Of a stretch of 43,624 nt of DNA, positions 496 to 42,891 are shown in pieces. Each line of letters starts with the position of its first letter. Position 1 is the stretch's first letter. The notes under the pieces are model-generated. The model was not told the origin of the DNA. It saw only the letters and a program-made list of their open reading frames with translations, and did not search any database. A program made the position numbers and the translations under genes. The stretch comes from Candidatus Firestoneibacteriota bacterium (lineage in GTDB: Bacteria > Oederibacteriota > D2-FULL-39-29 > CAIOVX01). The stretch is from positions 1 through 43,624 of the forward strand of contig CAITPB010000255.1 in assembly GCA_903894145.1 (NCBI GenBank). Reading direction: 5' to 3'.

Positions 496-507
496 AAAGC
501 CCCCTAG

Positions 508-769
508 ACCAAAATTCGAAAAAGCAAACTCGAAATTCGAATTACTCTGCGTCTTGTGATCAAGAACGCCAAGAATAAGCACCAGATCTCAAATCGCAAG
601 CACCAAATAAGCATCAAAAAAACAAAACAGCAAGAAGCAAAAAACAAAACTACCCCGAAACGAGCCAAAACTTTCTTCTTTTATGTTTATGTGTTTATTT
701 GTGATTTGGAGCTTGGGATTTGGTGCTTCCTCCCATTTCGAATTTCATGTTTCAGACTTCGGATTTGCT
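508..769 (-). repeat. Intercistronic imperfect inverted repeat built on the AAGCACCAAAT word with nested AATTCGAA-type outer arms (family A, copy 1)
   Basis: Outer left aagcaaactcgaaattcgaa pairs with outer right ttcgaatttcatgtttcagacttcggatttgctt. Inner left ataagcaccagatctcaaatcgcaagcaccaaataagc pairs with inner right gtttatttgtgatttggagcttgggatttggtgctt. Confidence 0.75.
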
Positions 770-1468
770 TTATCTCTCGTATGCCACCAGATTAACACAC
801 GATTCCAGGACCGCGTACACCGGCTTAACACCATAGCTTTTCGCCGTAACCTTAAAATTGACAATCTGAGGGAGCAAGTTATGATAATTATTGCCTCTCG
901 CTTTCATAAGAGAATAAGTGTCCCAGCTGTCAACCCAGGACTGCTTTTTTCCGTCGTAATAGGAAAACACTATCGCGGTAATATTCTCCAGAACTTCATT
1001 TTCCTCGTTTTTCCAGGGCGCGGTCGCGAAATCCCAGACTGAGCTTCTTTGAAAACAGGCCTCAACCCCTTCAGACGTCGAAGCCGGGCCATACGTAACT
1101 TTGGCCCTATACGACCTTCTGGGGAAATACTCCGGCCAGTAAAGAGTGACCGGTCTGGAATAGGTCATTACTTCCACAGAAACCGCCGTACCTTTAAATC
1201 CGAAATAATTCCGCTTAATCAGCGCCGATGTATAACCGGAGTTTTTGCTAAAAAAGACCGGTTCCGAAGCTCCGGTGGACCTTAAGTCCCTGGTTAAGTT
1301 TTTTACCATGTTGCGTGCCGAAAGATAGGCCTCACATTCTTTGCGATAATTGTCGTATGCACCCAGCCCCGCGGAAAAAGCGGCGTACACCCCGGACATT
1401 ATTATAACTATAATCCCCAGGCCTACCATCAGTTCAAGTAACGTATAGCCGCGCTCTCTCAGTTCCAA
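770..1468 (-). CDS. gspJ: Type II secretion pseudopilin GspJ-like
   Basis: Prepilin N-methylation motif RGYTLLELMVGLGIIVIIMSG; position between gspI and gspK. Confidence 0.75.
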   Translation of the reverse strand: MELRERGYTLLELMVGLGIIVIIMSGVYAAFSAGLGAYDNYRKECEAYLSARNMVKNLTRDLRSTGASEPVFFSKNSGYTSALIKRNYFGFKGTAVSVEVMTYSRPVTLYWPEYFPRRSYRAKVTYGPASTSEGVEACFQRSSVWDFATAPWKNEENEVLENITAIVFSYYDGKKQSWVDSWDTYSLMKARGNNYHNLLPQIVNFKVTAKSYGVKPVYAVLESCVNLVAYER

Positions 1469-1851
1469 TTCTGCACCGCCGGCTGCCTCGTAACAAAGAG
1501 GCTTTCCAGGCTTAAGGAACGGTCAGCCCCCCGCGCCTTATAGGCAACCCTCAGTTTAATGTTTATAAGCGAATAAAAATTGGTCCTTTGAACAACTGCT
1601 GATTGCTGTGACCAGGAAAAGCCCGGCCAGTCAGCCCCGAAGTCTCCTGACTCTGAAGCCTTGAACGCGTCCCGCCCGCCAAGCTGCTCCATCTCTTTCT
1701 GCGCGAGCGTTACCGCTATGCTTTGCTTTTTTATCTCTTCGACCGCAGCAAGCCCTGCCGCGACAGATTGAAGAGCCGCGACTATCACAATGCTCAGTAT
1801 CGCCACTCCGACAAGAGCCTCCAGAAGTATGTAGCCATGATTATTTTTCAT
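1459..1851 (-). CDS. gspI: Type II secretion pseudopilin GspI-like
   Basis: Prepilin motif HGYILLEALVGVAILSIVIVAALQ; overlaps gspJ and gspH; size 130 aa. Confidence 0.75.
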   Translation of the reverse strand: MKNNHGYILLEALVGVAILSIVIVAALQSVAAGLAAVEEIKKQSIAVTLAQKEMEQLGGRDAFKASESGDFGADWPGFSWSQQSAVVQRTNFYSLINIKLRVAYKARGADRSLSLESLFVTRQPAVQNWN

Positions 1852-2365
1852 AGTTCAGTAATTTTACCGTCCCGGTTGTTGCCGCGAAAACCAGTGTATA
1901 AACTTCCCCTTTTGCTCCTGAGAGCACCACGAAACCGCTTTCAGAACTTCCATCCGGGTAGAAAGTTATGTAATCCGGCGCACCTGATGCGGCTGCCCCG
2001 GATAAGGATCTCGGCGTATTCAAGCTCTTAATGGCTACTTCGCTGATTAGAACTATCTGCTTTACATCAGCCGTCACTTCGTACTGCATAGTAGCCGGGT
2101 TCATTCCGGATAGCGTTACGGTGTTTGCTCCCGGGTCAAAAGTCACGCGGTAATTTACCCCTTTTGCTTCTGCCAAGTTTCTAGCCAGGTCAGACATCCC
2201 TGCAGATTTCACAGCCTCTAAATAGGCCTTTTTCGAGGCATAGAAATTCCCGAACCAGATTGCGAGCACGGCCGTCATCGATATTATTATCGATACGACG
2301 ATGAGCATTTCAACAAGCGTGAATCCGGGGTTATTTGTTCTCTGACCAGTTCGTAATATCCGCAT
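1841..2365 (-). CDS. gspH: Type II secretion pseudopilin GspH-like
   Basis: Prepilin motif PGFTLVEMLIVVSIIISMTAV; position after gspG. Confidence 0.7.
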   Translation of the reverse strand: MRILRTGQRTNNPGFTLVEMLIVVSIIISMTAVLAIWFGNFYASKKAYLEAVKSAGMSDLARNLAEAKGVNYRVTFDPGANTVTLSGMNPATMQYEVTADVKQIVLISEVAIKSLNTPRSLSGAAASGAPDYITFYPDGSSESGFVVLSGAKGEVYTLVFAATTGTVKLLNYEK

Positions 2366-2768
2366 CAGGCCCCTGCCCGCCTTCCTTTCCGTCTCTGCCG
2401 TAAGAGCAGAGATCGTATCCGTTGGGATTATTCAGGCCGGGACACATATAAATGTATGTACCGTTCCAGGGATCGTTTCCGACCCGTTTCTTTATATATG
2501 GACCTTTCCAGCTGGTTGGAACCGGCTGGCTGGTCGGGGCGTTATAGAGCGCGTCCAGTCCTTGCTCGGTCGTCGGGTAAAAACCGTTATCCGCCTCATA
2601 GGCGTCGAGGGCCAGCTCCATCGTGGCAATATCAGACTTTGCCGCCGCTATCCTCGCGTCTTCGGTCCTGCCGAAGAACCGAGGGGCAAGGGTTGAGGCG
2701 AGGATGACGATAATTACGACGACTGTAAGGATTTCGATTAAGGTAAATCCTTTTTCCTTCTTAAACAT
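2331..2768 (-). CDS. gspG: Type II secretion major pseudopilin GspG
   Basis: KGFTLIEILTVVVIIVILASTLAPRFFGRTEDARIAAAKSDI...NGFYPTTEQGLDAL...DPWNGTYIY...SYGRDGKEGGQGPDADI, a classic GspG signature; RBS GGAGG upstream of ATG. Confidence 0.95.
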   Translation of the reverse strand: MFKKEKGFTLIEILTVVVIIVILASTLAPRFFGRTEDARIAAAKSDIATMELALDAYEADNGFYPTTEQGLDALYNAPTSQPVPTSWKGPYIKKRVGNDPWNGTYIYMCPGLNNPNGYDLCSYGRDGKEGGQGPDADITNWSENK

Positions 2769-2880
2769 ATGGCCTCCAAATTTACGTTTATAACGTTTGT
2801 AACGTTCTTAACGTTTATAACGAATAGCACAAATGCTTTACGTTACAAACCTTACAAACGTTATGAACGTTATAAACCGC
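2769..2880 (-). repeat. Intercistronic inverted repeat built from 9-bp units TAACGTTNN (family B, copy 1)
   Basis: Left arm about 2783-2828, loop acaaat 2829-2834, right arm 2835-2880. Ungapped comparison of the left arm with the reverse complement of the right arm gives 35/46 identities by hand count. Confidence 0.85.
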
Positions 2881-3989
2881 TATTTAACAATCGAACTCAA
2901 TCCCAATATCGGAAGCAGCACCGCGATTACTACAAAACCCACGCCCACCGCCATGACCAGTATCATGATAGGCTCCAGAAGAATTACAATCCTTCGCGTG
3001 GTCATCTCCATCTCTTTCTCGTAGTAAGCGGCTACCCTGCTCATAACATCCTCAAGTTTACCGGTTTCTTCCCCGACCTGAATCATCTGGATGATAGTTT
3101 TGGGAAAGAACGGTACATCTTTCAAGGCCAGGGAGAGACTGGACCCCCTCTCCACGCTTTTTGCCGCCGCCTTTATGTGCTTGGAAAGGACCGCGTTGCC
3201 GATAGTCTCGCCGGTAATTGAGAGCGCCTGCAGCATAGGGACCCCGCTTCCGGCCATTATGCTCAGAGAAAAGGAAAACCTCGTCAACAGGGCCTTCCGC
3301 ATTGCCGTGCCGAAAAGCGGAACATAGAGTACTGCCGTGTCAATTACCTCTCTTCCATTTTCCGTGCGTGAGTAGCGCGAATAAAATATTGCTCCGGCCG
3401 CAACTGCCGCAAGAATCACCCACCAGTAACCCGTAAAGAATGAACTGATGCCCATAAGTATCACGGTCGGAAGAGGGAGCGCCTGTTTGAATTCCGCGAA
3501 GAGCGTAACAAAAGTTGGAAGTATAACGGCCAGAATGAAGACCAGCACGGAAATTCCGACAAATAGCATTATCATCGGGTAGATCATCATCGTGGATATC
3601 TTAGACTGAAAATCCTCTTCCCATTCAAGCTGGTCGGCATACTTGGCCAGCGCCTTCTCGAACATACCGGTGACTTCTCCAACTTTGATGAGCCCTACCA
3701 TAAGCGGCGGAAAGGTTTGCGGATATTCGGACAAACATTCCGAGAAAGGAGTCCCGCCCTTTATCTTGTCTTTTATCTTTCCAACTATGCCTTTAAGCCT
3801 GGACTCTTCCATGCTATCCCAGAGTGTATTCATCGCCTGGTATAGCGGAACCCCTGCTCCGGACATAGTTGCCAGCTGCCGCGTGAAGGCGCTCAATTGC
3901 CCCACGCTCACCTTAGGAACATACAGGGAATTAAGCCGTTTGACGGCGTCTTTTATGGTAGCAAGCGCGCTCTCAGCCAACGTCTTCAT
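2880..3989 (-). CDS. gspF: Type II secretion inner-membrane platform protein GspF
   Basis: 369 aa; FTRQLATMSGAGVPLYQAMNTL, FSFSLSIMAGSGVPMLQALSITGE, IQVGEETGKLEDVMSRVAAYYEKE are T2SF motifs. Confidence 0.95.
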   Translation of the reverse strand: MKTLAESALATIKDAVKRLNSLYVPKVSVGQLSAFTRQLATMSGAGVPLYQAMNTLWDSMEESRLKGIVGKIKDKIKGGTPFSECLSEYPQTFPPLMVGLIKVGEVTGMFEKALAKYADQLEWEEDFQSKISTMMIYPMIMLFVGISVLVFILAVILPTFVTLFAEFKQALPLPTVILMGISSFFTGYWWVILAAVAAGAIFYSRYSRTENGREVIDTAVLYVPLFGTAMRKALLTRFSFSLSIMAGSGVPMLQALSITGETIGNAVLSKHIKAAAKSVERGSSLSLALKDVPFFPKTIIQMIQVGEETGKLEDVMSRVAAYYEKEMEMTTRRIVILLEPIMILVMAVGVGFVVIAVLLPILGLSSIVK

Positions 3990-5487
3990 CCTCCTGCGTG
4001 ACCTTTATAACTTCGTCAATGGTAGTAATGCCTTTTCTCACGCGCTCAAAACCATCGTCGCGCAGGGATCTCATACCGAACTCTCTCGCCTTATTCTTTA
4101 TATCACCTGTCATTGAGTGTTCCATCACCATTTTTTTCAGCTGCTCGTTCATCGTAAGCAGTTCGTAAATCCCGCTCCTTCCGTAATAGCCGGTGTTAAG
4201 GCATTTCTCGCAGCCCGTTCCTTTCATAAACTTGTCGCCGGGTTTTCTCTCAAATCTAAAATCCGCCAGATGGTCGTTGCCGGGATCATAGGGCTTGCCG
4301 CAGCTGTCGCACACAACGCGTACCAGCCTTTGCGCCATTATCCCTATGACTGAAGAAGCGACAAGATAGGGTTCTATCCCCATGTCAATAAGCCTTGTTA
4401 TTGAGCCCGCCGCGTCATTGGTGTGGAGTGTGGCAAAAACCAGATGGCCTGTAAGCGAAGCCCTTATAGCTATCTCCGCAGTCTCAAGATCCCTGATTTC
4501 TCCAATCATTATGATATCCGGATCGTGCCTCAGAATGTGGCGGAGTCCCTTTGCAAAGGTCAACCCGATTTTTGAATTTACTTGTATTTGGTTTATGCCT
4601 GAGAGGTGATACTCAACCGGCTCCTCAACAGTTATTATCTTCACGCTTGCCGAGTTAATCCTTGAAAGAGCCGTATAGAGGGTGGTGGTCTTGCCGCTGC
4701 CTGTCGGGCCTGTCACAAGGAAGATTCCGTGAGGCCTTGCTATAATGTTCTCAAAAGCTTTGTGCGTGTCGGGAAGCATGCCGAGCTGCTCCATACCGAA
4801 CAAGATACCTGCCTTGTCAAGTATCCTCATTACAACTCCCTCTCCGTAAAGGGTCGGGATAACAGAAACACGGCAATCAATCTGTTTGCCGCCTGCTTTA
4901 AGCTCTATCCTTCCGTCCTGCGGCAGCCTGCGCTCCGCAATATTCATCTCTGACATAATCTTGATTCTGGAGACTATCGCCCCGCGAAAATACTTTAGTT
5001 CCGCCGGCATCGGGACATCGCGCAACACGCCGTCAACGCGGAATCTGACCTGAAGCTCCCTCTCGAAGGGTTCCAGGTGAATATCGGTAGCCCTTTCTTT
5101 CAGGGCTTCCAGGAAAAGCTGGTTAACAAACTGGATGACTGAGGCGTCCTGAGCCATAGCGGTCTCGTCTATCTGCTCCGCTTCAGGGCCGGATCTGTCA
5201 AGAGACGCCCCGCTTTCAGCTATCATTCTCGCGACAGTATCGGCCCCGACCCCGTAATGTTTCTTTATGGCAAGCGTAATTTCTTCTTCCGGTGTTTCAA
5301 GAGGGGTTACCGGCTTATTAAAGATGAGTCGAATTTCATCAAGGACCTGAAGATTGTGACGGTCTGTTACGGCTACAACTACCGCGCCGTTTTCTTCTTT
5401 GACAGGAATTGCCTTGAATTTATTCGCGAACTTCAGGGGAAGCTTGGCGATAAGCCTTGTGTCAATCTCGATGTTGGAGAGCTTCAT
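3973..5487 (-). CDS. gspE: Type II secretion ATPase GspE
   Basis: Walker A GPTGSGKTTTLYTAL, VEEPVEYHLSGINQIQVNSKIGLTFAKGLRHILRHDPDIIMIGEIRD, tetracysteine CDSCG...CEKC, GRSGIYELL. Confidence 0.96.
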   Translation of the reverse strand: MKLSNIEIDTRLIAKLPLKFANKFKAIPVKEENGAVVVAVTDRHNLQVLDEIRLIFNKPVTPLETPEEEITLAIKKHYGVGADTVARMIAESGASLDRSGPEAEQIDETAMAQDASVIQFVNQLFLEALKERATDIHLEPFERELQVRFRVDGVLRDVPMPAELKYFRGAIVSRIKIMSEMNIAERRLPQDGRIELKAGGKQIDCRVSVIPTLYGEGVVMRILDKAGILFGMEQLGMLPDTHKAFENIIARPHGIFLVTGPTGSGKTTTLYTALSRINSASVKIITVEEPVEYHLSGINQIQVNSKIGLTFAKGLRHILRHDPDIIMIGEIRDLETAEIAIRASLTGHLVFATLHTNDAAGSITRLIDMGIEPYLVASSVIGIMAQRLVRVVCDSCGKPYDPGNDHLADFRFERKPGDKFMKGTGCEKCLNTGYYGRSGIYELLTMNEQLKKMVMEHSMTGDIKNKAREFGMRSLRDDGFERVRKGITTIDEVIKVTQEDEDVG

Positions 5488-5632
5488 ACTTCTTTATACC
5501 ACATAAGAGGACGCTCCTTTTGACACAAAACAGGAAGTCTTTGTCATTAGACCATTTCTAAGCTGCAAAGTTTCAAAAGACCTTACAGGACCTAAACATT
5601 AAACAATTGGAGGGGAACTTCCTTCAAGCTAT

Positions 5633-5760
5633 GCGGTTTATAACGTTACTAACGTTTGTAACGTTAATAACGAAAACAAAAGGCACCACTACCCCACAAC
5701 ATCTGAATACCAAACACTGCTTTACGTTATAAACGTTAAGAACGTTAAAAACGTTATTTT
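5633..5760 (-). repeat. Inverted repeat built from 9-bp units TAACGTTNN (family B, copy 2)
   Basis: Left arm 5633-5672 (gcggtttat aacgttact aacgtttgt aacgttaat aacg), right arm about 5721-5760 reading as its imperfect reverse complement; about 48 nt loop. Confidence 0.8.
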
Positions 5761-5853
5761 GCTATGCCGGACGAAGTACGGCATTATCAATATCCTACCT
5801 CACAAAACAGGACACACGAAGTGTGGCCTATAAACCTTAAGAACTTTTGTCTT

Positions 5854-8055
5854 TTACTTTATCCCTTTCTTCCACACCCCTCCGCCAAAAGTCGCCACAT
5901 ACATATCTCCGCCTTCGTAATCAAAAAATATCCGCTGAGGGGAAGCAAACGGGAAGTCAGTTTCGGACCACGAGGCTCCGCCGTCAACACTTTCCAGCAT
6001 ACCTCTTCCCTCTGTGGTCAGCAGGATGTGTTTTGTATTCCGCGGGTCTATGCAGGGCTTGAACGGATATATTACTTTTGGGGAAATATCCTTGGTCAAA
6101 TTCTTCCAGGTCTTCCCGCCGTCAACAGTCTTAAAGACGCCTCCATAATTCACACCTTTCAGACTGCCCATTGCGGTTAAATAAATAGTATCAGGATCAT
6201 TCGGGTCTATGTCAAATTCTACTGGCCAGAGAAGCAAAGTTCCGTCGCACTCGCTGGCTACCAGTTCCCAGTTTTCGCCGCGGTCTTTTGATCGGAAGAG
6301 CCCCCCGGGCACCGGATAATCGTTCGTGCCCTTGATCCTGTGCGCAGTTATGAGGCAATAGAGAGTTCCTTTCCTGTCTTTCGCTATCGTGTATACATCC
6401 GTATTGTCTGAAGCCATTTTGTGGTCAGACCTATTTTTCACAACCAGACCGTTGGACTTCTTAACCCAGGTCTTTCCTCTATCCAAGGACTTATAAACTC
6501 CGTCGGAATACATCACCGCGTAGAGCGCGTTATCCGTCCGGTCAAACAGCAGTTTGGTACAGGCCACCTTGGGAAGACCGTCCGAGACTACTTTCCAGGT
6601 CTTCGCGTAGTCGTCGCTTCTTAATACGCCGCCTGGATATTTTGCGCCTTCGCAGTTTGACCAATGGGGAATATCGTGCTCGTTGGAAGCCGCACCGTAG
6701 ACAACACCGGGGGTGTCAGGGTCAAAAGCCAGGTCATAGACCGTGTTCAGCCAGGCGCTCCCGGTTATCGCGATAGACCAGCTCTTACCAGAATCTTCGC
6801 TCCTCGCAAAACCTATATCGGTATAGCAGATGTAATGAATATTCTTTTTATTAGGATCAATATAATAATTCCAACTGGAGGATTCTTCCAGACCGCGCGT
6901 CTGCCATGCGGCCCCTTTTATCGGGGTTCCTTCCTGCATCAGTTTCGTGTAGGAGTAGTTCCAGCTCTTTCCCCCGTCAAGCGTAACCATAAGTTCGCCC
7001 ATCCCGCAGCCCGCAAGAATGTCAGGATTAGAGGGGCAAATGTTTGTACCCTGTGTAAGCGGCCCTGAATAGCCCTTGCCGAATTCGTAGGTTATCCAGC
7101 CAAGTTTGACATTCTTGTAATTGTCAGGTTTGAAGACGTTCTTCCAGGTATTCCCGGAATCTGTTGACTTGTAAATATCGAAAATATCCCTGTTTGTGAC
7201 ATAGACGGTATCAGGGTCGGATTCCGCCGTGTATAACGCGAAAGGGTTTGGCGCGGTTCTTGCCCCGGCAGGAGCAATATCCCAGTTTTCACCCCTGTCT
7301 AAGGAACGCCAGAGGTCAGTTCCCGCAAGACAATAGAGCGCGCATTTTCCCGCAATACTGCCTCCCGAGAAACTTTTCATCTCAGGTTTTTTGAGCTTTG
7401 AAATCCAGGTCTTTCCTCCGTCATCCGAACGGAAGATGCCATTCCTGGTGGCGGCAAATATCGCTTTGCCGAATTTGCTCCCGCTCTGATCAATAAGGAA
7501 ATTCAGCGTGCTGCCGGAAACGCCTTCGCAGGCTGCCCAGGTCGTACCTCCGTCCGCGCTTATAAAAGATCCCTTATCTGTTCCAAAAAGCATGGTATCC
7601 GGAGTTTCCCTGTCCAAGTAGATCTTAAGCACCCGGTCGACTGAGGGCATTTTTTCCGCAAGGATGCTCCAGGAGGAGCCGCCGTCTCTGCTGACTCTGA
7701 TACCGTAGGCGTCTTTAAAACTTCTTCCGGCGCAGTAAATTGTTCCGGCTTCCTTAGGGTGAAACACGGGAGTTCCCGGCAGTATGCCGTTCAACTCTTT
7801 CCAATCCACAGTTTTCCAGGACTTCCCATAATCAGCGCTGACATAGAACCCTGACATATCCCCGCCAAGAACCATTCGTGAAGGATCAACCGGAGAAATT
7901 GCCAGGGTTTGCATTCCTGCGGACTGTCCTATCCCTGTCTCGACCCACGCCGGCCCGGATTGCGCGGACGGCGAAATGCAGCACTTATTGCCGGCGCAGC
8001 CTGAGAGGAAGAGAAGTACAATAACCGGGAAGAGCAGGGACATTTTCGTAAACAT
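5854..8055 (-). CDS. Lipoprotein with BNR/Asp-box (sortilin/VPS10-type) beta-propeller repeats
   Basis: Lipobox LLFLSGC. About 13 Asp-box motifs (SADYGKSW, SDDGGKTW, SLDRGENW, TVDGGKTW, SVDGGASW and others). Start placed at MFTKM with GGAGG RBS rather than the ORF-track start at 8073. Confidence 0.85.
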   Translation of the reverse strand: MFTKMSLLFPVIVLLFLSGCAGNKCCISPSAQSGPAWVETGIGQSAGMQTLAISPVDPSRMVLGGDMSGFYVSADYGKSWKTVDWKELNGILPGTPVFHPKEAGTIYCAGRSFKDAYGIRVSRDGGSSWSILAEKMPSVDRVLKIYLDRETPDTMLFGTDKGSFISADGGTTWAACEGVSGSTLNFLIDQSGSKFGKAIFAATRNGIFRSDDGGKTWISKLKKPEMKSFSGGSIAGKCALYCLAGTDLWRSLDRGENWDIAPAGARTAPNPFALYTAESDPDTVYVTNRDIFDIYKSTDSGNTWKNVFKPDNYKNVKLGWITYEFGKGYSGPLTQGTNICPSNPDILAGCGMGELMVTLDGGKSWNYSYTKLMQEGTPIKGAAWQTRGLEESSSWNYYIDPNKKNIHYICYTDIGFARSEDSGKSWSIAITGSAWLNTVYDLAFDPDTPGVVYGAASNEHDIPHWSNCEGAKYPGGVLRSDDYAKTWKVVSDGLPKVACTKLLFDRTDNALYAVMYSDGVYKSLDRGKTWVKKSNGLVVKNRSDHKMASDNTDVYTIAKDRKGTLYCLITAHRIKGTNDYPVPGGLFRSKDRGENWELVASECDGTLLLWPVEFDIDPNDPDTIYLTAMGSLKGVNYGGVFKTVDGGKTWKNLTKDISPKVIYPFKPCIDPRNTKHILLTTEGRGMLESVDGGASWSETDFPFASPQRIFFDYEGGDMYVATFGGGVWKKGIK

Positions 8056-8087
8056 CGTACCTCCGCAAAACATGACACCTTGTTTAT

Positions 8088-28986: not shown

Positions 28987-29137
28987 ATTAATCAAATCTC
29001 AAATCACAAGCACCAAACCCCAAATAAAAACAAAAAAAACAAACCACAAACTGACCCTATAATTACTTGTATTTTATCCTTTTTTGTTCTTTGGTGCTTA
29101 TCTGGCGCTTGGTGCTTGTTATTTGGTGCTTGTTTTA
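28987..29137 (-). repeat. Intercistronic imperfect inverted repeat built on the word AAGCACCAAAT (family A, copy 2)
   Basis: Left arm attaatcaaatctcaaatcacaagcaccaaaccccaaataaaaacaaaaaa. Reverse complement of the right arm: attaataaaacaagcaccaaataacaagcaccaagcgccagataagcaccaaagaacaaaaaa. Confidence 0.8.
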
Positions 29138-30208
29138 TTAATACTTACCCAATTCCTTCGCCAGCCTCATAAACTCCTGAAACTGCGTCAGGGACACGCT
29201 GTCAGGAATAGAATGATCGGTTGCGACAATATAGCCGCCGTTCTTTTTCATCATCGGAATTAAGTGCCGCATTTCGTCCCACATCACCTGCGGTATTTTG
29301 TAGGACATCGCGTTTAGCCCGCCCATAAAGGTCAGCTTATCGCCAAACTCTTTCTTGAGCTTCTCCGGATCCATGCCGGCCTTGACTTCAAGCGGATTGA
29401 GAATATCAAGACCCATTCCGACAAGATCCGGAACAAACGGCATTATATCTCCGCAAGAATGCAGGTGCGCTTTCATTCCGTTGGCATGCGCGAAATCGAT
29501 GCATTGCTTGTGGAAAGGTTTGAGCAGTTCGCGGTACATGTCCAATGAGAAAAACTGATTGTACTTGTAGCCCATATCATCATACCAGAATACTTCGTCA
29601 AACTTATAGCCTTCGTCCAGAATGAGCTTTATCTGGCTCAGGTTCAGTTCAAGGTGTGTCTTAAACATATCCTGCATCCATTCAGGGTCCTCAACGAGCG
29701 CCATAAGAACCCGCTCCGTGCCTACCATCCATGAATGCGTCACATCAAATCCAAACCAGTTTACAAGCCCCATCCAGGCCCCTGCTTCCCGGTTCTTCTT
29801 ATAATTGGTCTTCAAATAACCCCATTCTATACGGTCCCTTGACGGCGTCATCCGCGCCTTTGCTTTTTCCCACGCATCGCGCGAGGTTATTGTAAAGTCA
29901 ATAAACTCGGGGGTGCTGCCGGCGTGCTTCCAGTTTTTCATAGTAACGCCCCATTTTGATTTCTTTATTATGTATTCCTCAGTTTCTTCAACCACTTCCT
30001 GCGGGTAACTCGGTGAATTGTCACAGATATGCCAGCGGCAGTATTTGTCCATACCAAAGAAGTCCTGAAAATCAGCGCCTTTCGGCATGCCTTCCCTTTC
30101 CCATCTCTCTACGGCTGTCGGCCAGGGATTGTCGATTATCGGGCAACGGTCAGCTTCCTTATGTTCAACTATCAATTTCACTCTCTCTCTTGTTGTCAGT
30201 TCTTTCAT
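29138..30208 (-). CDS. Uroporphyrinogen decarboxylase (URO-D) superfamily protein, probably a methyltransferase-like member rather than HemE
   Basis: LTTRERVKLIVEHKEADRCPIIDNPW start, HLHSCGDIMPFVPDLVGMGLDILNPLEVKAGMDPEKLKKEFGDKLTFMGGLN; lacks the HemE motif PxWxMRQAGR. Confidence 0.85.
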   Translation of the reverse strand: MKELTTRERVKLIVEHKEADRCPIIDNPWPTAVERWEREGMPKGADFQDFFGMDKYCRWHICDNSPSYPQEVVEETEEYIIKKSKWGVTMKNWKHAGSTPEFIDFTITSRDAWEKAKARMTPSRDRIEWGYLKTNYKKNREAGAWMGLVNWFGFDVTHSWMVGTERVLMALVEDPEWMQDMFKTHLELNLSQIKLILDEGYKFDEVFWYDDMGYKYNQFFSLDMYRELLKPFHKQCIDFAHANGMKAHLHSCGDIMPFVPDLVGMGLDILNPLEVKAGMDPEKLKKEFGDKLTFMGGLNAMSYKIPQVMWDEMRHLIPMMKKNGGYIVATDHSIPDSVSLTQFQEFMRLAKELGKY

Positions 30209-30217
30209 GGGAAACTC

Positions 30218-31486
30218 CTATAATGCCGAATGTTTTAGTAATGCCAGGCAGAATGCTATTGCCGGCAGGAACGGAACTAGCATAAAAAGGTAAGGATAGC
30301 TTTCAGTAATCTCAACCTCAAAATACCCGCAAGATAGAACATAACACAGGTGCACGGGTGAAAGCAACACTCCGGCATAACCGCTGATAAAAGCGAAGGA
30401 AAGCATCGGGATGTTTATGGAAGCCCCCTGCGCGAGGAACGGCAGTATGAGCGGGAAGGTAATGCCCACATAGGCCTGTACCACGCCGGTTAGAAGTCCC
30501 GCGGTAAAAGGCAGAGCGAAGACCACCAATAGCGGGCTTATCCCGGCGAAAATGAAATATTGATTCAGTTCGGTTATGGCGCCGGAGATATCCAGCATAT
30601 TCTTAAAATACATTACCCCGAATATCAGCAGGAGTATTTCCGGGGAAAGCGCTCTTTTCAGCAGTCCGGGCAGCAGTTTAAGCTCCATCCTGTAACTTAA
30701 CTGCATTGTGATTATCACGGCAAGCAGCGCCGGAATAAAAAGCCTGTTGTTTAACAGGACCGCGGCGGCAATGAAGAGCACAGGCAGAGTTCCTTCCAGC
30801 AGGTTAAGAATATGAGCCTTAAGGCTGTTGCCGTCTTTTGGCATGTCAGCGGGTTTTGGCACCTTATGGAAGGAAACAAACCAGCCCGCGGCCAGCATAA
30901 AGACCACGAGCGGCCACTGGCAGGAAACAAGAGATACAATGGCCACTCCAGTAATTGCCGAGGCCAAAAGCAATCCCGGGTAAAGCGGAAGTATCGGTTC
31001 CCAGATATGCCTGAACCAGTAATTTGCGAAGGCTTTTTTTGAGGCCTTCATATAGGAGCCCTTTAGAGCTTCTCCGACCATCGGAGCCGAAAATCTCGCG
31101 CCTCCGGCGGAGGGCAAGACCCCAAGAAGCACGGGAAAGAAGACCGCCACTTTTCTTGGGTCGCGGAGAAGGTGCCCTGCTGAAGCTATCATCCTGTCGA
31201 AAACTCCCGCCTTTCTCATAACAGATTCAAGCAGGCCGATGAGGTAAAGAATCAGCATAAGTTCCACGGTTATGAAAGAGCCGGTCTTAGGGTCCGGCTC
31301 AAAGACGGTGCGCAGAATATTGCGGAAGATTTCGACCGGGTCAATACGGAACATCAAAACAAGGAAGAACGCGGAGATAACGAGCGAAAGTCCAAGAGAG
31401 AGTTTTAAGCGCAACGCAAGGATTATCAGGACAAAGATGAAACCTACCTTGAAGATTATCCAGAAGTCGGGAGCGGCAACCGGCAT
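30218..31486 (-). CDS. DUF401 family integral membrane protein
   Basis: Multi-TM; LGVLPSAGGARFSAPMVGEALKGSYMKASKKAFANYWFRHIWEPILPLYPGLLLA, FISGYAGVLLSPVHLCYVLSCGYF. Confidence 0.8.
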   Translation of the reverse strand: MPVAAPDFWIIFKVGFIFVLIILALRLKLSLGLSLVISAFFLVLMFRIDPVEIFRNILRTVFEPDPKTGSFITVELMLILYLIGLLESVMRKAGVFDRMIASAGHLLRDPRKVAVFFPVLLGVLPSAGGARFSAPMVGEALKGSYMKASKKAFANYWFRHIWEPILPLYPGLLLASAITGVAIVSLVSCQWPLVVFMLAAGWFVSFHKVPKPADMPKDGNSLKAHILNLLEGTLPVLFIAAAVLLNNRLFIPALLAVIITMQLSYRMELKLLPGLLKRALSPEILLLIFGVMYFKNMLDISGAITELNQYFIFAGISPLLVVFALPFTAGLLTGVVQAYVGITFPLILPFLAQGASINIPMLSFAFISGYAGVLLSPVHLCYVLSCGYFEVEITESYPYLFMLVPFLPAIAFCLALLKHSAL

Positions 31487-42821: not shown

Positions 42822-42840
42822 TAACAATGCTGTCTTAAAA

Positions 42841-42877
42841 GTTTATAAGGTTCGTAAAGTTCATAAGGTTTGTAAGG
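42841..42877 (-). repeat. Degenerate 9-bp tandem repeat (TAAGGTTNN), apparently single-armed member of family B
   Basis: gtttat aaggttcgt aaagttcat aaggtttgt aagg: same 9-bp period and gtttataa(c/g)g entry as copies 1 and 2, with AAGGTT replacing AACGTT. Confidence 0.7.
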
Positions 42878-42891
42878 TAAGAGCAGAACAC

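Follow-up and report, generated by a model that had tools for sequence, protein, structure and literature searches.

Among described bacterial repeats, REPs lie less than 20 bp from the 3' ends of open reading frames, in convergent and unidirectional gaps (PMC3733652), and for those located at most 15 nt from a stop codon an effect on translation is reported (PMC12306157). Direct repeats of the heptamer TAACTGA, known from Beggiatoaceae, Cyanobacteria and Bacteroidetes, form a second system, for which a role at the RNA level has been proposed (PMC4679880). What drives REP-like repeats and what they are used for is disputed. The repeats analyzed here include one word family with an identical post-stop rule in three phyla, unrelated vocabularies exchange at orthologous junctions, and conserved words can be distinguished from unfavoured pairing; a direct test thus becomes possible of whether repeats of this type are selfish elements, structural elements or sequence signals. 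According to our interpretation, the locus probably belongs to a mosaic of dispersed REP/BIME-like repeats (families A, B, C/D and others), which are retained in 3'UTR and intercistronic positions and may have a REP-like role on transcripts.

Repeat elements around the T2SS operon

The window, i.e. the whole stretch of 43,624 nucleotides analyzed, corresponds to contig C255 of a Candidatus Firestonebacteria MAG (1.88 Mb, 283 contigs). Congeners retrieved via the repeat carry that same label; the own genome is denoted G000, and G001 to G003 (CAIWWK, CAIOVX and CAIWRR) were matched by exact sequence. Family A consists of tandem GTTYNTAAS nonamers with an AACGTT core. Treating families A and B as one was rejected, as they have no word in common. 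The elements and their principal neighbours are the following:

About 505 to 770, no strand assigned: family-B hairpin lying between the gspJ stop (770) and the gspK start (about 496), with AAGCACCAAAT / CAAATC words and outer TTCGAATTTC words
2331 to 2768, minus strand: gspG (Pfam T2SSG, 3.9e-36)
2784 to 2829, plus strand: family-A arm, separated from the gspG RBS by about 7 nt, reading GTTTATAAC GTTTGTAAC GTTCTTAAC GTTTATAAC
2834 to 2879, minus strand: family-A arm, its 5' end 2 nt past the gspF stop codon, 82% complementary to 2784-2829
2880 to 3989, minus strand: gspF (Pfam T2SSF, 1.3e-62)
3973 to 5487, minus strand: gspE (Pfam T2SSE, 2.7e-139)
5636 to 5674, plus strand: family-A arm on the gspE side, a nonamer array
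5718 to 5757, minus strand: family-A arm toward the upstream BNR/sortilin gene, a nonamer array
5758 to 5842, minus strand: C/D module, a dispersed repeat of two GC hairpins (CACACTTCGTGTG; GCCGTACTTCGTCCGGC) whose linker carries AGGTAGGATATT
5829 to 5850, minus strand: short degenerate A-type remnant TAAACCTTAAGAACTTTTG, recognized by alignment, adjoining the stop at 5854 and longer in G002
28987 to 29138, no strand assigned: family-B hairpin lying between the URO-D stop (29138) and the pfpI RBS
42832 to 42876, plus strand: one A-type array, AAG/AAA subtype, beside a terminator-like hairpin

The identity of the operon is based on Pfam matches to T2SSE, T2SSF, T2SSG and N_methyl pseudopilins; the match to T2SSJ is weak and below the cut-off. 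In or beside gspE-K lie two A-type nonamer elements (2784-2879 and 5636-5757) and one element of type B (about 512-766). Directly upstream of gspE, a gene at 5854-8073 encodes a BNR/sortilin-like beta-propeller protein of 739 aa, possibly a secreted cargo.

The first-pass annotation of the window had described five hairpin elements. Four of them fold far beyond shuffles: relative to dinucleotide shuffles, the z-score is -8.9 for the gspF/gspG element, -4.9 for the A element upstream of gspE and -3.2 for the RNA fold of the gspJ/gspK hairpin, and the URO-D/pfpI hairpin reaches -6.1. The fifth (42832-42880) is a single array without a hairpin, which folds no better than shuffles (z -1.0); at the orthologous place, G002 possesses an AAC-type array instead. 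The proposed span from stop codon to RBS applies to gspF/gspG, where the element starts 2 nt past the gspF stop and ends about 7 nt short of the gspG RBS, but not to the element upstream of gspE, which leaves about 149 nt to gspE and is separated from the upstream stop by the GC double hairpin at 5758-5842. The remaining junctions are short, as had been stated: codirectional gaps without elements have a median length of 20-27 nt. The suggested concentration in the T2SS operon (three out of five elements in 8 out of 40 junctions, post-hoc p 0.046) was abandoned; the repeats occur genome-wide.

Copy number, placement and taxonomic spread

The census of family A covers an unselected 381 kb of the congener G002 plus the window (425 kb in total), with genes predicted by a home-made gene caller. 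It comprises 80 non-redundant arrays, and none of them lies inside a called gene. In G002, arrays are present in 13 out of 18 convergent gaps, in 25 out of 288 codirectional gaps, and in only 1 out of 19 divergent gaps. The arrays are directional: the GTT end points toward the stop codon in 57 out of 77, and 40 of these 57 start at most 20 nt from the stop, whereas distributing the arrays randomly within their own gaps would give 10.5 +/- 2.8. The other 20 face a start codon, 13 of them at a distance of at most 45 nt and mostly as right arms before the RBS. Several convergent gaps show the order stop codon, array, intrinsic terminator. Respect for stop and RBS boundaries at other loci, on which the first-pass proposal had been staked beforehand, is therefore strong. 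Of the clusters, 29 consist of one array and 15 of an inverted +- pair, so that about a third are hairpins; among paired arrays, the order of a + arm followed by a - arm prevails. Single arrays in codirectional gaps are predominantly in sense orientation (14 versus 3 antisense, p 0.013, n=17). In 94% of the units, the spacer begins with a pyrimidine. The core AACGTT was also considered as an avoided signal; it is 3-fold depleted under a Markov-1 model, but the ratio is 0.95 under Markov-3, and the idea was rejected.

The exact pattern of family A, AACGTTNNTAACGTTNNTAACG, has 70 matches in the own genome versus 0 for the reversed control, 89-218 matches in the three congeners, and 0 in 36 more distant genomes. 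With the looser form (GTTNNTAAN x3), all 9 of 9 genomes of the order are positive, versus 0 out of 36 others of the phylum; the relatives in the order have AAA or AAG where the host has AAC. Among the matches listed, which give a lower bound for the spread of A across the genome collection, the exact pattern furthermore has 47 occurrences in the genome of Patescibacteria C14-29 (G045) and 30 in that of Ignavibacteriales AS27 (G046), versus 0 for the reversed pattern. In the stretches around these occurrences, all arrays lie outside the called genes. The stop-facing arrays cluster at the stop codon, with 13 out of 23 within -8 to +13 nt in the Patescibacteria genome and 6 out of 10 within -8 to +4 nt in the Ignavibacteriales genome, and the spacer preference (TA, TG, CA, CG and TT) is similar to that of the host. 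The nonamer common to Patescibacteria, Ignavibacteriales and the host reflects either shared descent by transfer or convergence. Matches from SUG1147 and RUG11225 were left out of account, as they resemble repeats of other types; Bacteroidales SUG1147 contains a longer repeat, CTTACTCTAAAATGTGTAACGTTTGTAACGTTTGTAACG, at L074, L085, L102 and further JALFZG loci, which has the TAACGTTTG word in common but apparently represents a separate family.

The other vocabularies are dispersed as well. Words of family B have 23 matches in the own genome (up to 2 mismatches) versus 2 in the control. The C/D double hairpin, with its conserved linker, is present in dozens of copies per genome in the genus, e.g. 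at 5758-5842 of the window, at about 8233-8340 of L263 and at many further loci. Another double-hairpin repeat of ~110 nt (CCCCGGAC..GTCCGGGG; GTGCCAAA..TTTGGCAC) was noticed at about 31210-31320 of G002:C27, from 2136 of G002:C84, and within the gspJ/gspK element in L267; a relative with the stems ATGCCGGA..TCCGGCAT (G002:C22, about 53960) suggests compensatory stems. Further junctions contain GATTACGCGGATTACACAGATTA hairpins and GGTTGGATGGTCAGATGG-type repeats (L299 3962-4082; L219 about 30-110; L300 243-739), the latter adjoining tRNA-like sequence.

Exchange, pairing and conservation at orthologous junctions

We surveyed 658 orthologous junction comparisons in the four congeneric genomes; most orthologous junctions show about 30% difference at third codon positions. 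The gspF/gspG arms are conserved in all four congeners (the arm at 2784-2829 in 4 species), and the loop contains a GC double hairpin in G002. The B hairpin between gspJ and gspK is kept in 3 congeners, and the copy of G002 contains a double-hairpin insert of ~108 nt. Upstream of gspE, the own genome and G003 have one A element, and in G001 and G002 the A arms surround a B-like hairpin; modules of type B or GC can thus be nested between A arms. Entire vocabularies are replaced as well. One junction possesses A in G000 and G003 (L215/L094) versus B in G001 (L243), and another has A in G002 and G003 versus a GATTACACAG-type hairpin in G001 (L299). One clean empty site documents block insertion: the gap measures 30 nt in G000 and G001 (L285/L283) versus 160 nt in G003 (L289), with about 130 nt inserted between CAATATATA and TGTCATT and no target duplication. 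Because of these cases of junction exchange and insertion, the proposal that unrelated vocabularies occupy one niche, with A versus B or a GATTACACAG-type hairpin at orthologous junctions and nested modules, is better supported than it was in the first-pass annotation. Some intergenic stretches (L015, L214 versus G001) are identical between congener MAGs, which points to recent exchange or mis-binning.

The first-pass annotation had proposed that selection may act on the long hairpin structure (serving processing, insulation or supercoil control) with the vocabulary being irrelevant. Hairpins from unrelated vocabularies at the same junctions, the strong folds of four elements in the window and the dominant + then - order of paired arms agree with this, as does the C/D module, which covaries strongly: over 48 distinct copies, pairing amounts to 96.5% versus 88.2% in shuffled ones, and 56 double-compensated cells compare with a shuffled maximum of 25. 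For family A, however, the proposal fails. The NN spacers match in only 15 out of 97 cases within true pairs versus 24.6% in permuted pairs, and the duplex energy is -31.4 for true versus -33.4 kcal/mol for random partners. B arms behave in the same way, with true partners pairing worse than random ones, and compensatory pairing in both families was rejected since the tests gave the opposite result. The mismatches of the gspF/gspG arms are preserved across four species, single arrays outnumber the A hairpins, and words and arrays are conserved. As an account of these junctions, selection on structure is thus improbable. Because A arms match their partners worse than random pairs do, their pairing is a consequence of the word that they share; the existence of two types of arm, or a loss of perfect palindromes, may account for the deficit. 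In family A, it is the word that is conserved and not the pairing.

In 49 alignable A junction pairs, divergence is 0.042 for words and 0.111 for spacers (ratio CI 1.7-5.5), whereby block exchange that preserves words lowers the word divergence too. An initial estimate (word 0.07, NN 0.27, third codon 0.30) was discarded, as it was biased by exact reference words and block replacement. At junctions with a third-codon divergence >=0.2, the 91 arrays fall into a conserved class of 48 (word 16/1290, NN 22/432) and 43 arrays exchanged wholesale as blocks; about half of the A arrays are hence conserved near-verbatim, and 33 out of 91 show zero spacer changes, though the flanking third codon positions are 35% diverged. 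Median divergence is 0.08 in A-bearing gaps versus 0.23 in element-free gaps (p 0.002). All of these conservation comparisons have species and loci in common and are hence not fully independent. Arrays could also look conserved verbatim as a result of recombination between populations, though the flanking codons at those junctions diverged. The letter-for-letter retention of many arrays hints at some role in message ending or processing.

This retention also bears on the main rival, according to which the repeats are selfish or neutral MITE-like palindromes without function, found only in gaps where insertion is harmless. Such an origin would readily accommodate the clean insertion, the nesting, the unrelated families in one niche, the block replacement and the tight gaps, but it leaves unexplained why arrays hug the stop codon far beyond random placement in the same gaps, why single arrays are biased toward the sense strand, and why 33 of the 91 arrays kept every spacer base beside diverged codons. 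We consider it rather unlikely.

The main exciting rival is a word-reading factor shared across phyla: a hypothetical DNA- or RNA-binding factor would read post-stop GTTYNTAAS arrays, and the hairpin would be incidental. Words change less than NN spacers, the first spacer base is nearly always a pyrimidine, pairing is not favoured, and the word, the spacer preference and the post-stop placement are alike in Patescibacteria and Ignavibacteriales. However, block replacement by itself keeps words and scrambles spacers, and there is no particular avoidance of AACGTT elsewhere than in arrays. Such a factor seems unlikely to us, although the hypothesis is attractive. We are similarly doubtful about its broader version, in which the arrays would constitute a cross-phylum post-stop code, i.e. 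sites of a hypothetical conserved factor marking the ends of coding sequences, with junctions acquiring, keeping or exchanging arrays or equivalent hairpins under selection.

Under the preferred interpretation of a mosaic of dispersed, non-coding REP/BIME-like repeats, the elements enter or supplant each other as blocks wherever a compact genome permits this, which it does at few sites, and they are kept directly after the stop, in intercistronic gaps, or between stop and terminator. The copy number, the placement, the nesting, the insertion and replacement of blocks and the near-verbatim retention of about half of the A arrays are observations; mobilisation in trans by some enzyme is an inference. 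On the transcript, a post-stop array or hairpin might then contribute to 3'-end protection, intercistronic processing or stop-codon events, as has been proposed for REPs.

Comparison with known repeat systems

Rfam yields no match in the window at the gathering score, only sub-threshold noise from miRNA hairpins. Similarities to MITEs are the short, non-coding sequence, the inverted arms and the clean two-arm insertion; the differences are that the one empty site shows no target-site duplication and that no parent transposon was found. In 14 intervals between + and - arrays of the sampled sequence, no transposase is evident among the proteins, which were judged by eye. With the TAACTGA repeats (PMC4679880), family A shares a tandem short word, the intergenic location and a patchy distribution across phyla. 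Those repeats differ in word and period, lie mostly just upstream of start codons, and have invariant units without a variable spacer; inverted repeats are almost absent.

The likeness to REP/BIME/REPIN (PMC3733652, PMC3116915, PMC12306157) goes further: these repeats, too, are high-copy, extragenic, mosaic and nested, occur as inverted pairs and singlets, and lie no more than about 20 nt from ORF 3' ends in convergent or codirectional gaps and rarely in divergent ones. As to a REPIN-type unit, we observed the 15 +- pairs besides the 29 single arrays and one two-arm insertion. Family A differs from REPs in being a tandem nonamer array and not one GC palindrome, in being AT-rich (about 30% GC), and in that its word recurs across several phyla. 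A known REP/REPIN population with a GTAG-tagged RAYT as its driver would share the placement, the copy number and the inverted-pair arrangement, and Y1 transposases are present in the genus. Yet the A and B arms bear no GTAG/CGTC tag; A arms start with GTT and mostly end with GTAAA, and the GTAG-like string of C/D belongs to the linker and not to the stem, and differs from copy to copy. No RAYT directly flanked by repeats was found; at one locus, generic arrays lie at a distance of more than 1 kb. Y1/RAYT genes are widespread in the phylum, and Y1 genes are equally common in members without the repeats. We therefore regard a RAYT-driven population as highly improbable.

The first-pass annotation had seen here a candidate for an undescribed system. 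The A word family itself was not found in the papers searched, where its letters gave only chance strings in unrelated contexts. Identity with REPs fails on the tag and on the flanking RAYT, but family A works like a REP/BIME population; since its placement and mosaic behaviour match REP/BIME (PMC3733652), this kind of repeat is already known.
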